A DNA stretch of 64,000 nt from Halichondria panicea (lineage: Eukaryota; Porifera; Demospongiae; Suberitida; Halichondriidae), in contig NC_087378.1 in assembly GCF_963675165.1 (NCBI RefSeq), positions 3,073,525-3,137,524 on the forward strand. Reading direction: 5' to 3'. Under the pieces are notes generated by a model. That model was not told where the DNA came from, did no database searches, and saw nothing but the letters and a program-made list of their open reading frames with translations. Below are positions 11,301 to 29,300 of the stretch, in pieces. A program made the translations under genes and the position numbers. Positions within the stretch are counted from its first letter, which is position 1, and each line of letters opens with the position of its first letter.

Positions 11301-14300
11301 AAAAAAACGCTTTTAATAGTCGTTTAGAAACTGGGGTAGAATGCCCGGGAGAAGGCTGTACTGGTTACTTGGAGAAATTTACTTAGTCAGCCAGACAAAA
11401 TGCGGTACGAGTGCAGATTTTGATTTTGGACACTCCATAGAGAACACATACGTACACAAGAAAGGCTCAATAAACTAGATGTGAAGCGAGTTTTCAGATC
11501 TGGTCTTTTTAATGCAAGTTTGAATGAGATAATACGTGAAACATTGCTAAAAAGCTACAAACGCTCAGCCCATCCTGTATATACTGTATGGCTATCACCT
11601 ACACAATGTACAATGTACCTGTTGACACAGTCTCTGGATTGTAGTTGATCATGATGGTGGATTTGCCCAGCTTCCGTAGCTCACGAATACACCCAACGGC
11701 ACACCAGTCAAACTCAACAGAACTTCCAATCCTGTCAATACAGCAAAGCAATATCATGTGCAATCAACTCTCCTGAAAGGGTTTTGACTTTCAAAATGAA
11801 TGGAGCAAGAGTAAATACTTTATGCCTCGGTGCGCATGCGCATGGGCAAGCGAGGTATACGGTAGTGTGTGTTTGTCTGTGTAGACTGCTACAGCTGCTC
11901 AAGGATCAATGAAGTGCAAGAGTCTATAGGCTTCTAGCCATGTTTTCTATTCGTGGATTTGTAAAATAATGCTTGGTTCTCGAGTTATACCTACTTGGAA
12001 TGCCATTGCAATCTTTTCAGAAGAGTGCGTACAAACAAAAACTTGTTCATGGAGTGTTGCTACTCTACTTATTGTCCTTGAATCCTGATGTGCCATGTCC
12101 AGTCTTCAGGATTACCCTACATGCGTACTAGACTGGCGGCGACAGCCCTAACGCGAGGGACTGGCAAACTGTCTATCAGTCACTCGTCTCAGCTGCAACG
12201 AGCATTGCAGCCTATCAGATTGCTTAACGTCATATTAGCCCTGTAATTGTAACCGCACTTACACTTCAGGGGATTCAGTGCATTCCATAGTAGCTGAATC
12301 TCATAGCAAAATTTAACCACATTATCTATAACGATATTCATGTTTAGTAGTGTCGTACGATCTATTACACTTCCGCTGAGACGAGTGACTGATAGGCAGT
12401 TTGCCAGTCGCTCGCGCTACGCGCTCGGGCGGCGACAGCCGCCAGTCTACATGCGTACATAGTTAGCTCTGCAATAGAATGCTAGCTCTTAATTGGTAGC
12501 TACAAGCAGCTATTAATTTTAGACTTGGAATTTTGGTAGCAATTTTTTTTAACAACAATCATGGTTGAACATTTCCTAATCTTTTCCTACTCTTTGAGTT
12601 TCCCTGTGATTCTACAGGCAGAAAAATTAATTGCAAAAATGTTCACCATAACATTATAATGTGTATAAGCTATTGCTACCGAGGCATCAGCACCCACGGT
12701 GCTTTCATTCAAACAGTGTACGCGTAGGTTGACACACACCCATCACTGTACGCCACAAAGTCTCAATGTACTGCTCACCTGTACACCCCAGAGCCAAGTA
12801 CCATTACGGCCCCTCCCGGGAATTCCAGGTCATGTGACCCAGCATTGTACGTTAGGTAAAGATAGTTGGTGAATGCAGGATACTCTGCAGCAACCGTATC
12901 AATCTGCTTCACATACGGATGAAGGTCAAGTTGCTTTCGAAGATCACGTATGGCAAGTTCTGTGGAATCCACAAGGCGAGCAATCTGGCGATCAGAGAAA
13001 CCAAGCTTTTTAGCTTTCAGCAGCAAGTCCTTTGAACAAGCCTGAATCACAACGAAAGGAACATAATAACGTACACAATGTTTAGGTGAGTTCTTCCTTA
13101 GGAAGTGTAATAGTACTTAATTAAAAAAACACATTACGCAACAACAGTGGAAGGTGCACAAATACCGTATTTACTTGATTAAAACCCGGGTTTTTATCTC
13201 CTAGCAACATCTGTAGAGGGGCGTTTAAACGAGATGGGCGCTTATTCGAAACGGGTGTATTGTTATGTTCACTTTAAACTCATGCACAAGCAGCAGTTAT
13301 TATGCTATTCTTGGCTGCTTCCACAGCTCTCGGCTTAAATCTTAAGTCGTAGGAGTGGTGTTTCTCCCTCTCTGTCAGTATCTCTTCTCTTTGCCATCAT
13401 AAACAGTATCTATTATTCTATGCTGCCATGCTTGCAACTGGTTCCAAGTGCTATCAGTCCACCCACAGTGCCACGCCTCATACATGGGCGATTATTTAAG
13501 ATGGGGGTTTATTGACAAAGACAGAGTTTTTACCATGAGCGTTTAATCAAGTAAATACGGTACCTTGTAGTCAGTTGCCTCCAGTGTTTTAACCATGGCA
13601 ATGATATTCTTCATCTTCGAAAGAAACCAAGGGTCAATTCTTGTGAGGGAGGCCAACTTCTCGATCGAGTACGAATCAGATTGATAGAGAGCGGCAGCCA
13701 CAGCAAAGATCCGCTTGTCAGTTGGGTTGGTCAAGTCCTATATATAAAAATGTGCATAATTTGTACGCGGTATACCAGGAGCACAGGAGGAGATGGAGCA
13801 TCTTATAGGCATAGTATTGCGGATTCACTATTACAGCCTAACCACATTTACTTGTTTGTAATGTGCTAAGTGCTCTGTACACGTGCAGAGGAGGTCCGAC
13901 TTGCGTGCACAAATCACTACAAGTTTAGTGCATTGATGTCATTGCGGTCACATGATAACATCCAGGCCACAATGCACTTATTCGTGCACGCATGTCGGAT
14001 CTCCTCCGGTACACGTGTGGCAGTTGATCTAATAATAGTGAATTCATTAATTTTGTACAATAAACAATGTTAGCAGCATTTAGCAGTTTGACATAATTTA
14101 TGGCATAATTATGCATCGGTGCGCATGCGCAAGCAAAGTATACGTTTGTGTGTCTGTGTGTGTAGACTGCTGATGCTCAAGGATCAATGAAGTGCAAGTA
14201 AGAGTTTCTATAGGCTTCTAGTCATGTTTTAATTCGTGGATTTGCAAAATAATGCTTCGTTCTCGAGTTATGCTGCCTAGTTTTGCATACTTGGAATGCC

Positions 14301-17300: not shown

Positions 17301-20300
17301 CTAGAGCTAGTTTGGCAGCGACATAAGCCAAAGGGTACCCAGTTGCCTTCGACGCTAGAGCAGAGCTTCGAGACAACCGAGCATTCACCTCAATGATGTA
17401 GTACTGTGCGGAAACAATACAAAAGTAAACAATAGCCTGATCAGACACACAGGCACACCTCATTTGAGTCAGGGTTCAGAGCATACTGGATGTTGCACTC
17501 CCCCACGACTCCAAGATGGCGCACCGTCTTGATAGCGACGGAACGAAGGAGGTTGTACTCTGTTGTGAGAAAATGAAGACTCGATCTGATACATATTTCT
17601 TCACTTTTGGAACGCACAATACAATTGCTATAACTGTATCTCCAAACCAAATAATAATTATATCAAGAAAGTGGCACTCTGCTTCTAAACCACATCAGTT
17701 TCATCTAATGGAGGGGGCAGGGGTGATGTAATAGGGTGTGTGGTCAAACATTTTGCGGCATGTTTATGTGCACCCAAACCCTCCCCCCTCCCAATTTAAT
17801 CCTAGATGAAACCCTGCACATACCGTGGCTACACATGTACATTCCACCTTTGCATCCATTATAAATATATGTAACCATTGCGTAACTGTAACAGATACAT
17901 AAGCTACAATACTACGCATGATGCAGATGCAATATAATGATGTATGGCATAGCTTTGTACCTTTGTTAGTGAGTGTCTGTGATGGGGCCACCACTATGGA
18001 CTCCCCTGTGTGAATGCCCAGTGGGTCCACATTCTCCATGTTGCAAACCTGAATACAACAGCATTAATACCTGCTACCAATGCATATAAAACACATTCGG
18101 ATAACAATTGCGCGTAATTATTACGTATTTATAGCTGAAGTGATCCCGTACCAGGAACAATGGAAAAGGGTCACTAAAGTAGAAAGCGACTGGCTTGTTG
18201 TCTCGGGAGGCTTCTTTGCTGACTCCGGATCCTAGCACCAGGATCATACTTCTCTAAGACTCAAGGCTCTTCTTCACTGTGATGATAGTCCACAGTGCAT
18301 GTGTACCATGCACTACTCAAATGCTTCAGCATGCGTTCAATGTGGTTTAGTTTCTATTGTTCCCGAGTTGCTGTGCTGGACAGCTCAGTCATCATAGTGA
18401 TACATACTTTATCTTAGCTACATGCACTGCATTTATCGCTCCCTCTGGTTTCTTTATAATCATGCCACCAGCCGAGGGTTTGCACTTTAGTGCTCTAGTT
18501 ATGTGCTCTAGTTATGATATGTTTTATTTTTATTTTATAGGTGTACATGCAAGTACATACGTAACTAAACGAGAACTCACAGTAATACAGTTATCATAGC
18601 TATCCCTGACCACCTCATACTCAATCTCCTTCCAGCCCTTGACGCTTTTATCAACTAGCACCTGTGAGCATTTCAAAATGAGATCATCAATGTGTAGCAT
18701 GGACTCGATATTTTCCATACAAGGTCAAAATAATCATTTTTACAAATTGGAGGCAATTAAGAAGTTCAAAAGATAGTTTTAAGGTTTTATGGATTGAATT
18801 TATATACCATAGTTAACCATCAAACCGCCCATATCCTATCCCCTACTTTTGCCTGAAAGCCCTGTCGAAGCCTAATCGCAATCATAGAAGCGCCGACTAT
18901 TGCGTATGCGTATAATTGGGTAACGGTCAACATGATGCAAGATCTTAACTGTGCTCATAATGTGCCAAAAAAACAAGACTTGTAAAAGTTATATACCAAG
19001 GGCATATGAAGAGAAGAAGGGCATGCAACTACAATCTATGGTACTAAAAATAGCATTGCACGTGCACTTTATACTCTAGACTAGCCTTGTTTTTACTCTA
19101 TTCCCTGGTGGGTGGTTGGCTAAATATAGCATATCCTGCTGAATTATCTATAATATGACGCATGCACAGTATACATTGTGAGTTGCATGCCCTCTTCTCT
19201 TTATATGCCCAAGTTATAGACCTATACAAGGGTTGTTAGATCTATCGTAGAACAGACATCAAGCTGTGTTTAAGATGAGACTGTTTCCTTTGAACACATG
19301 GTCTACTTCCAAACGATGGAGCTGTGTTGTTGTCACAGCACAACTTTTTTGTCAGTAGCCACATAATCAAATATCCGCCCACCCCTTGTTTTTTATAGCT
19401 ATCAAAACAGGTGGGCAGTTCGATGGTTAACTACGGTACATTCATGGCCACATTAAGGGTGACAGACCTGTTTAGAGTGAGAGAAGGCAGTGAATGCAAG
19501 AGCTTCCATCTCTTCAGGGTTAGCGGCAAACCCTGACCCCAACCCACCAAGGGTGAATGCTGACCGCACAAGAACTGGGTAGCCAATAGACTCGGCAGCC
19601 TCGAGTGCCTGCACAGAATACACGGGGATTCTAATAACGATTGACAAAGAATCACCACAGTGTGTTCCTTGAAAAGTTTTTTTGAAGGAAATACAGTTAT
19701 TACGATGCTCACATGCACATGCACCATGCACACAGATGAATAATAAATGTTCACCTCTGTGACAGAGTAAGCAGCAAGACTGGGAGCAACTGGCTCTGAT
19801 ATGGTGGCCAACTCTGATGCAAACTTTTGCCTGTCTTCAGTCATCACAATGGAGGTTACTGGCGTTCCCAAAACCTCCACATTGTACTTGTCCAGGGTGC
19901 CTCTCTCGGTCAAGTCAACGCCACAATTGAGAGCAGTCTGGCCACCAAACGACAAGAGGATACCATCCGGGCGCTCATTTGCAATAACCTATTTGGAGTG
20001 AGAGTGATATTAGTACCATTGACTGATAAAGAAATCCTTACCTGGGTTACATACTCAGGGGTGATGGGCAAGAAGTAAGTTTTATCAGCCATTCCTTTGG
20101 ATGTTTGCACAGTGGCAATGTTTGGGTTGATGAGCACAGTTTGCAAGCCTTCCTCCTTGAGAGCCTTGATGGCCTGAGAACCAGAATAATCAAATTCTCC
20201 CGCTTGTCCTATTGAAAGCCCTCCAGATCCAAGAATAAGGACTTTTCGCTTATCTTTGCATTTTCCTGCAACTGTGTGTGGCTCATGATCAACACTAACA

Positions 20301-26300: not shown

Positions 26301-29300
26301 GGTGCCATGCTAAGCTACGTAATATAAACCTACTAGATGCACTGGAGCAACACAATGCCCTCAGGGCTGCATGAGGGCGCCTGCAATAACTAACTTGTCG
26401 TCAAACTCTTTGATTGGTCTTAAAAGACATACCGTATAGCGCGAAATTTTCGAGGCACTTATATTTCGTGGATTGGCCTCTAAAAACCATTTCGTTGCAC
26501 AATGTTCGCGGAATAACTGCTTACCGGAAGCCACGCCTTTAAATCTTTGCATGATAGCAGGTAATTCTAATTAAAGAACACTTTTTGTGGACTTAATTTT
26601 TGTGTAGAATTCTAACCCACGAAATCTGCGAAAATTAAGCCCCTCGAAAATTTTGCGCTATACGGTATGTTTTGAGTGGAATTTTAGTGAATTCATGAAT
26701 TCCATAGTACAGTGCAACAACCAAAGATTGGATTTTTTTACATTTTTGTGAATATTTTCTAAAGTAAAGGTGTTATGAATACAGGTACTGAAAGTTCAAC
26801 TATTGGCGCTTACCTGGGACCACCACCTGTTACATCAGATTGCATCATCACTACAAAATGGCTGCCAGAAGATGTGTACCTACCGAAATCTGTTAGGAAT
26901 ATAGAACTAGCCTATTTGTTTGAGTTAAGATCTGAAATTTTGTTGTATGAATGAACTTGAGTATGTTGCTTAATGTTTGAGCCTCACCGTAAGTCTGGGC
27001 TACTAGTAGGTTCTGAGAAATACTGCTTTTTGTTGTTTTGTGGTGGTAAATATGTTCGGGTTCATACTAGTTAAGGGGTCTGATTTTTGATGAGCATGTC
27101 CTACAATAGTATACTTTTCATCGGTACTAATTTACAGGAGTTAAGCTAGTCTCTTCTTTGCTAGAGCAAAAACTGTGTTTTTGCTGACATAAGCAATGAT
27201 ATACCCTACTTGTGACATCACAAATCATCTTGTCATTATTTACTACATCCAACGCTCATGTGATCACTACCTGCAAACTGCATTGTTGGAAAGAAGCTTT
27301 AGTTTCCTAATCCACGAATCAAAACCCTAGAGAGGCTAGAAGCCTATAGAAGCTGTTATTTTTCGTCGCATTGCAACCGTTGAGCAGTTACAGCTGGAAC
27401 AGACACATAGACAGACACACACACACAGTCAGCTTTACCGTATCCTTTGTGCGGCTACGCCTCGAGGCATAATAATACTGTACATTCTTGACACTACACT
27501 TACACATTATAATTATTACTGCTCAAACCTTGCAAGAGACCACAGCTACAAGGTTCTGAAGGTTAGGATCCTTGAAAGGCATGTCGGCAGCACAGTCTCC
27601 TTCTACCACCACCTTGCCTAACATGGTACCATGTTCACGGATTTTCTTAGTGAGCTCTCTCGTGTCAATTCCTGCAGTTATAAGGGCTTATAAAGAGAAG
27701 AGGGCACGCAACTCAGACAATTCTTAGACTGATCCAACTACACACTGTTACATTTTACTTTTGGCACTAATGGATTCACTTCACTATAAAATGAACAAAC
27801 ACATAAAAAAAATCATGATAATTATTATGAGGAACATTTTGCAATTTTGCTGCGTGCATGCAGAATCACAAAGAGTGGGAAATGATCGACCATGATTGTT
27901 GCTAAAAAGGATTGATGCCTAAGTGCAAAAGTCTAAAATTAATGGCTGCACTACAGTAGAGCCTTGCAGCTCTCTTCTCACTCTTGCAGTTACCAATAGC
28001 TAGCGTTCTAGTGCAGAGCTAACTACTAAGGAAAGTAGCAACACTCCATGGAGAAACTTTGCTACGCACTCTTTCGAAAAGGCTGCAGTTAGACATAACT
28101 TGAGAACCAAATATAATTTTGCAAATCCACAAACTAAAATCCAAGAAAAGAGTATAAAAGCCTACAGAAACTCTTATTTGCACTTCATTGATCCTTGAGC
28201 AGTTGTAGCCAGAGGAGGTTGGCCAAGCGTCATAATTTATATCAAAAGTTTTGCGTGCACAGAAAAAGAAGAGAAATACAGAAGTACATCATCAAGCAGG
28301 AAACCCTAAGTGGATCTATATCATTGCCGAGCACCTTAGTGCGAGGCAACTAATACTACATCGTATCTCAGAAAACCTTGTATTATCTAAGTTGGTTGTT
28401 CAGCTCTATACTGGTGTACATCCCCATGCAAGGCATATATACATACAGTACTGCCATAGCTAACCATGCGCATTACACAATAAACTGCTTTCCTCTTAAT
28501 ACGCTCGATAAACTGCATAAACCGCTCTCATGTTTTCTGATTCTATCGCACAGGATACACCATTAGAAAACATGTATGTACCATATTACTTGATTAAACG
28601 CCCATCTCGTTTAAACACCCATGGTAAAAGCTCTATCTTTGTCAATAAACGCCCATGTAGGGGCATGCATGGCACTGTGGGTGGAGCTGAATTAGCACGT
28701 GGAACCAGATGCAAGCATGCAGCTTAGAATAATAGATAGTATTTATGATAGCAGAGAGAGAGAGATACTGACACAGAGGCTTAAATAATTGCCCATGTAG
28801 GGGCATGGCACTGTGGGTGGAGCTGAATTAGCACGTGGAACCAGATGCAAGCATGCAGCTTAGTATAGATGGTATTTATGATAGCAGAGAGAGAGATACT
28901 GATACAGAGGGAGAAACACCACTCCTATGACTTAAGATTTAAGCTGAGAGCTGTGGCAGCAGCCAAAAAGAGCATAATAACTGCTGCTGTGCAAGAGTTT
29001 GGAGTAGACTCTGGAGTAGACATAACAATAAACACCCGTTTCGAATAAGTGCCCACCTCGTTTAAACGCCCCCTCTACAGACTTTGATATGAAATAAACT
29101 CCCGGGCGTTTAATCAAGTAAATACGCTATGTATGTATGTATGTCACGCTTCAGGAATGCGGAATTGGGTGCGTCTACATTCGCTATTATCTCCAAACTG
29201 ATCTACTATTGGCATAATTATGCAGAGAATAAAAGCTACGTACTATATAGCTGGAAGAGCTTAGACTAGCTGTAGCTATATAAGAGCCTCACATGAACAA

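Follow-up and report, generated by a model that had tools for sequence, protein, structure and literature searches.

The window analysed here is a stretch of 64,000 nucleotides (nt) from the sponge Halichondria panicea (assembly GCF_963675165.1, contig NC_087378.1, positions 3,073,525 to 3,137,524; all positions below count from its first letter), and CAD is a minus-strand gene running across it. In CAD intron 15, a miniature inverted-repeat transposable element (MITE) with its TA target-site duplication (TSD) reaches into the splice donor. The features of this region are given below, where a slash marks a splice site, +1 is the first intron base and TIR stands for terminal inverted repeat.

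13564..13737, minus strand: CAD exon 15 (CPSase_L_D3 oligomerisation region; end ...ATDYK), from the splice-join search, Pfam PF02787 (E 2.1e-27 on the spliced peptide) and the PDB CPS1/CarB alignment
13561..13563, minus strand: donor GTA, with G+1 host DNA and T+2 A+3 one copy of the TSD, from the sequence and from 191 of 195 exact element ends with TA in front
13542..13560, minus strand: TIR CCGTATTTACTTGATTAAA, intron +4 to +22, from inverted-repeat comparison
13525..13533, minus strand: possible decoy donor ATG/GTAAAAACT in the MITE, G+1 at 13533, from position, reading frame (in-frame TAA ahead) and U1 energy
13165..13560, no strand assigned: MITE, 396 bp, from perfect TIRs and the genome family
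13165..13183, plus strand: opposite TIR, from inverted-repeat comparison
13163..13164, no strand assigned: TA TSD, second copy, from the sequence and inverted-repeat comparison
13042..13162, minus strand: host intron remainder, 121 nt, single-copy, acceptor TTCAG, giving with GTA the 124-nt pre-insertion intron, from empty-site reconstruction and genome search
12779..13041, minus strand: CAD exon 16, from the splice-join search

Exon 15 terminates in ...GACTACAAG (codons GAG GCA ACT GAC TAC AAG) with its last base at 13564, and the first intron bases are G13563, T13562, A13561, C13560, C13559 and G13558. The intron spans 522 nt (13563-13042, minus strand), begins with GTACCG and ends in TTCCTTTCGTTGTGATTCAG, the acceptor being ...GATTCAG/GCT with exon 16 starting at 13041. 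Its GT...AG termini and pyrimidine-rich 3' end, judged by eye, are those of a U2-type GT-AG intron. A first-pass annotation of the window had assigned the TSD to intron bases 2-3 and the MITE end to everything from base 4 onward, which the coordinates and the perfect 21-nt inverted repeat including TA bear out; its statement that three quarters of the intron is MITE agrees with our count of 396 of 522 nt (76%).

The inverted repeats at 13163-13183 and 13542-13562 measure 21 nt including TA (19 nt without it) and are 100% complementary, while the longest stop-free stretch in six frames is 58 codons and no transposase frame was found. A genome search with the element returned at least 52 match rows, about 40 of them near full length, and family identity was 82-89% except for the window copy itself and one copy at 75% (best 40 of 326 candidates scored). 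The exact 18-nt element end CCGTATTTACTTGATTAA occurs 195 times in the 131-Mb genome, and 191 matches are obtained if TA must precede it. Short, bounded by TIRs, without a transposase frame and present in many dispersed TA-flanked copies, the element is a MITE, and its presence, its TA and its overlap with the CAD donor are confirmed. No match to the 21-nt TIR pattern was obtained in viral contigs. A further copy of the same family, with an internal duplication, is located at 28586-29126 inside the long CAD intron 3.

The reconstructed intron before the insertion

When the element is removed together with one TA, what remains is an intron of 124 nt, AAG/GTATTTGTGCACC...TTCCTTTCGTTGTGATTCAG, which contains stops in all three frames. 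The donor of this reconstructed empty site is AAG/GTATTTGTG, i.e. AAG/GTATTT and not GTAAGT. The host remnant outside the element has a single genome match, namely itself, and no residues corresponding to it were found in the alignment to CPS1 or CarB. Since this single-copy remnant carries the acceptor and stops and lacks a counterpart in the homologues, the MITE appears to have entered an existing intron. We infer that this 124-nt intron underwent splicing prior to the insertion, and mutations of the flanks since then were presumably negligible. There are 12 TA dinucleotides in the empty intron, among them the donor's, so that with an even choice among them an insertion at the donor would be a one-in-twelve event.

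The first-pass annotation had seen in this arrangement a resemblance to the way introner-type elements begin, in which case the MITE would have created the intron in formerly continuous coding sequence. The TSD does contribute some of the donor bases, a trait that PMC9860276 describes for certain introner families, but 121 nt of the intron are outside the element, and these are the single-copy, stop-containing nucleotides (together with GTA) that are absent from CPS1 and CarB. Moreover, the other element end provides no acceptor (...CGG-TA-TTTG), and no second exon-end copy was recognised among the 85 GTACCG ends in a partial screen. The resemblance therefore did not hold, the intron being older than the element, and birth of the intron from the MITE was rejected as extremely improbable on the grounds of the host remnant and the homologue alignment.

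Probable use and strength of the GTACCG donor

The first-pass annotation had also held that frame and protein match favour the GTACCG site, and this was upheld. Joining 13564 to 13041 links TDYK to ACSKDL, and the joined peptide can be aligned with human CPS1 and E. coli CarB without any gap where the exons meet; it also aligns to the Pfam oligomerisation domain. In the splice-join search against human CAD, this join ranked first with a score of 159, compared to 154 for the runner-up, a form that splices from a GC donor within the exon and lacks five residues. A variant with this donor but an acceptor 12 nt downstream scored 152 with a spacing of -4, which has no bearing on the donor. If intron 15 were retained, a TAA would be reached after six more residues. 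A protein search of the genome with the peptide of exons 15 and 16 matched these two exons alone, with no second copy, and the 24 exon anchors of the CPSase part of CAD, chosen from window translations, are all present and in order, which together make some correct splicing likely. Judged by frame and protein length, GTACCG is likely the donor in use.

Use of another donor was considered as well: GAG/GCAACT (13578) or ATG/GTTAAA (13593), both within exon 15 and in frame, would shorten the protein by 5 and 10 residues, respectively, whereas ATG/GTAAAA (13533) within the MITE would truncate it. The second rank of the GC donor in the splice-join search speaks for such use, as does the computed U1 energy of the MITE decoy, which in a 13-nt calculation is -5.3, with -6.5 for the real site treated in the same way. 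However, the decoy is located behind an in-frame TAA, U1 pairing of GTTAAA is weak (-2.6), and the shorter forms disturb a spacing that is conserved in CPS1 and CarB. In a bacterial and archaeal carB sample (80 loci kept of 495, among the matches listed), the motif pair across the junction was present in 55 of the 80 loci, with a spacing that was equal or +1 in 44, -3/-4 in 7 and longer in 4. None of these 55 scorable loci showed a spacing of -5 or -10, the values expected from the in-frame alternative donors. We therefore regard another donor as unlikely.

The computed U1 duplex (-3..+6) comes to -5.7 kcal/mol at the empty site, compared to -5.6 kcal/mol at the present one. The earlier claim that the element displaced the usual AAGT is not supported by this nearly equal pairing and by GTATTT at the empty site; barring later mutation of the flank, A+4 and G+5 would have been absent already before the insertion. 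The accompanying expectation that such a donor would normally fail is not supported by the other CAD donors. Eight of the 22 donors as placed, intron 15 included, are without G+5, as are 4 of the 17 placed most clearly. A GTAC start is shared, as placed, by introns 11, 14 and 17. Compared to the intron 15 donor, U1 pairing is better in 13 of the other 21, equal in 1 and worse in 7. All eight donors missing G+5 follow AG, while the four placed donors without AG before GT all carry G+5. Splice donors are known to trade off their exon side against their intron side, and the pattern of the CAD donors fits. The GTAC donors at 17960, 16859 and 11618 are, as placed, without G at +5 and all after AG, with a rival placement within one score point for 16859 and hand placement for 11618.

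Drawing on what could be observed directly, namely the anatomy of the intron, the MITE family, the reconstructed empty site, the single-copy remnant and the continuity of the protein, we consider it highly probable that the element was inserted into an existing intron whose donor was kept in place, already weak and hardly weakened further. A non-autonomous, TA-targeting DNA transposon would have inserted at the TA at +2/+3 of the short, pre-existing 124-nt U2-type CAD intron. The TSD would have brought T and A back, so that GTA survived while +4..+6 changed from TTT to CCG. The old donor would have leaned on its exon side (AAG/GTA) and little on +4..+6, and as a consequence the computed U1 pairing hardly changed and, at its new length of 522 nt, the intron would have remained spliceable from the unchanged donor position.

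Several points weigh against this reading. The human CAD reference used for the splice-join search and the donor list was a sequence entered by hand. The 22 donors were placed by protein alignment, with a 23rd intron outside the set. For introns 2, 8 and 17, a hand placement was preferred to the first choice of the search; it restores the human spacing in intron 2 and the human VST-DYD join in intron 17. For introns 3 and 14, a rival placement comes within one score point. When these five doubtful introns are left out, the count of donors without G+5 is the 4 of 17 given above and GTAC is found in intron 11 alone besides intron 15. The trade-off between -1 and +5 in the CAD donors is not significant (Fisher p 0.25). 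No empty site was found for another family copy (0 matches to one empty-site pattern with up to 3 mismatches), so that the 2-bp TSD rests on the statistics of the element ends.

A predicted hairpin is a further such point. In the predicted fold of the exon end and intron, G+1 is unpaired and +2 to +22 are paired with the other repeat. A hairpin starting at U+2 could hinder U1 at the donor; it could instead loop out the element and bring back the old spacing. If the TIR hairpin hid the donor, the site would be used poorly and the allele would be hypomorphic, perhaps private to the sequenced individual. The predicted pairing agrees with this explanation, but the fold of the whole stretch is unremarkable (z-score -1.3; 10 of 100 shuffles fold equally well), and U1 could presumably bind while the second repeat, some 360-380 nt further along, is still untranscribed. 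We consider a poorly used donor rather improbable, though less so than the use of another one.

Other copies of the family near donors

The genome listing gave 85 GTACCGTATTTACTTG ends, and the 84 besides the CAD donor were retrieved with their flanks. None of them was recognised as an exon end in the partial screen, which examined the open frames of all 84 and ran 10 of the 75 candidate peptides (open peptides of at least 20 aa ending at the element boundary) against Pfam. AG precedes GTACCG at seven ends, and for the six outside the window no convincing coding frame terminating there was found. Likely coding flanks among the peptides run against Pfam were a Death-like one (L027), an ANF_receptor one (L081) and a coiled-coil-like one, the last of which gave Pfam hits exclusively under the cut-off. 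The donors of the three are about 5, 15 and 52 nt ahead of the element, respectively.

Two candidates were set aside. L012 gave a weak hit as a Thoc2 coding end (E 0.0078, under the cut-off) and no PDB match; in another frame, it contains a weakly fn3-like stretch (E 0.0067, under the cut-off) ending upstream at GTAAGT, the best match in that frame being Fimbrillin_C (E 0.0048, under the cut-off). L033, formally a complete GT-AG MITE intron (GTACCG...CGGTAG), showed no open frame across its joined flanks, which look mutually inverted.

Four copies are located 6-17 nt inside introns of other genes, with donors identified by eye. Their TA is found at +6/+7 behind the Death-like exon (L027; Pfam E 4.5e-4, under the cut-off), at +10/+11 in an NAA15-like gene (L006; Pfam E 2.4e-12, PDB NAA15 E 9.6e-10) and at +16/+17 in both an importin-like gene (L013; Pfam E 7.6e-4, under the cut-off) and the ANF_receptor gene (L081; E 3.7e-7). 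A dispersed repeat, with at least 43 match rows (best 40 of 186 candidates scored), starts about 7-19 nt inside the placed donor agag/GTACAC of CAD intron 14 (16859 downward, minus strand) and is a second transposable element near a CAD donor.

Donor-like motifs were tallied in 108 of 116 flanks after removal of near-duplicates. Within 80 nt of the element, 17 motifs point toward it and 4 away. In 20-nt bins the 17 are distributed as 5, 3, 5 and 4; two of the first five (L014 and L065) share donor and flank and count as one, and the donors of CAD, L006 and L081 escaped the motif score and were recognised by eye at the element edge. No distinct peak is visible, and the family may be mildly enriched within the first 20 nt. 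G precedes the TA at 36 of 100 ends (among the matches listed, 100 of 191), compared to 21.3% of TA sites in the window; the p-value of 8e-4 is a guide value, as the copies are not all independent. Where G precedes the TA, T follows the far TA in 23 of 30 measurable copies, compared to 27% of window GTA sites (GTAT 0.058 of 0.213). The family favours G-TA-T targets, which may exert some pull towards donors.

A more far-reaching idea is that this taste for G-TA-T overlaps with donors and leads to repeated landing on or just inside them, that the TIR serves as a tolerated weak donor, and that the repeats fold out so that the enlarged intron acts as a short one. We consider this unlikely; if true, the family would represent a partly pre-adapted introner precursor in an animal.

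Comparison with known systems

Introners that draw their 5' splice site from the TSD have been described, for example in Symbiodinium microadriaticum (PMC9860276). The CAD case resembles them in being a non-autonomous DNA element with TIRs and TSD bases in the donor, but differs in having a prior intron, a host acceptor beyond the element, a 2-bp TSD and one known copy. The defining feature of introners, a new intron in coding sequence, appears to be lacking in CAD. The introner elements of Amoebophrya carry inverted repeats that pair the 5' and 3' intron ends and recur in many genes (PMC7789003); they share with CAD an inverted repeat at the donor end and a predicted hairpin looping out intron sequence, whereas the second repeat in CAD precedes 121 nt of host intron. 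PMC7789003 also mentions non-canonical introns in Fritillaria. In plants, MITEs are reported to add or disrupt splice sites, mainly with alternative splicing as the outcome (review PMC12595863); there, too, a genic MITE gives splice-site sequence, but the CAD site appears to have been kept in place.

In the open-access literature, searched by titles and abstract starts, no MITE or transposon at a splice donor was described among the matches listed. CAD intron 15 provides a clean natural case in which a transposon would have replaced the donor from +4 onward with its position unmoved, and it permits a direct test of the intron side of a donor, and of a hairpin from +2, when the exon side is AAG.

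The tunicate Fritillaria has MITE-related introns with non-canonical splice sites, which are associated with intron creation. Both cases concern an animal and MITE-linked introns, but CAD intron 15 is GT-AG and was probably enlarged. The impression is of a neat chance invasion of an intron and not of intron birth, and the case allows intron enlargement to be told apart from intron birth, two outcomes that look alike at one boundary.
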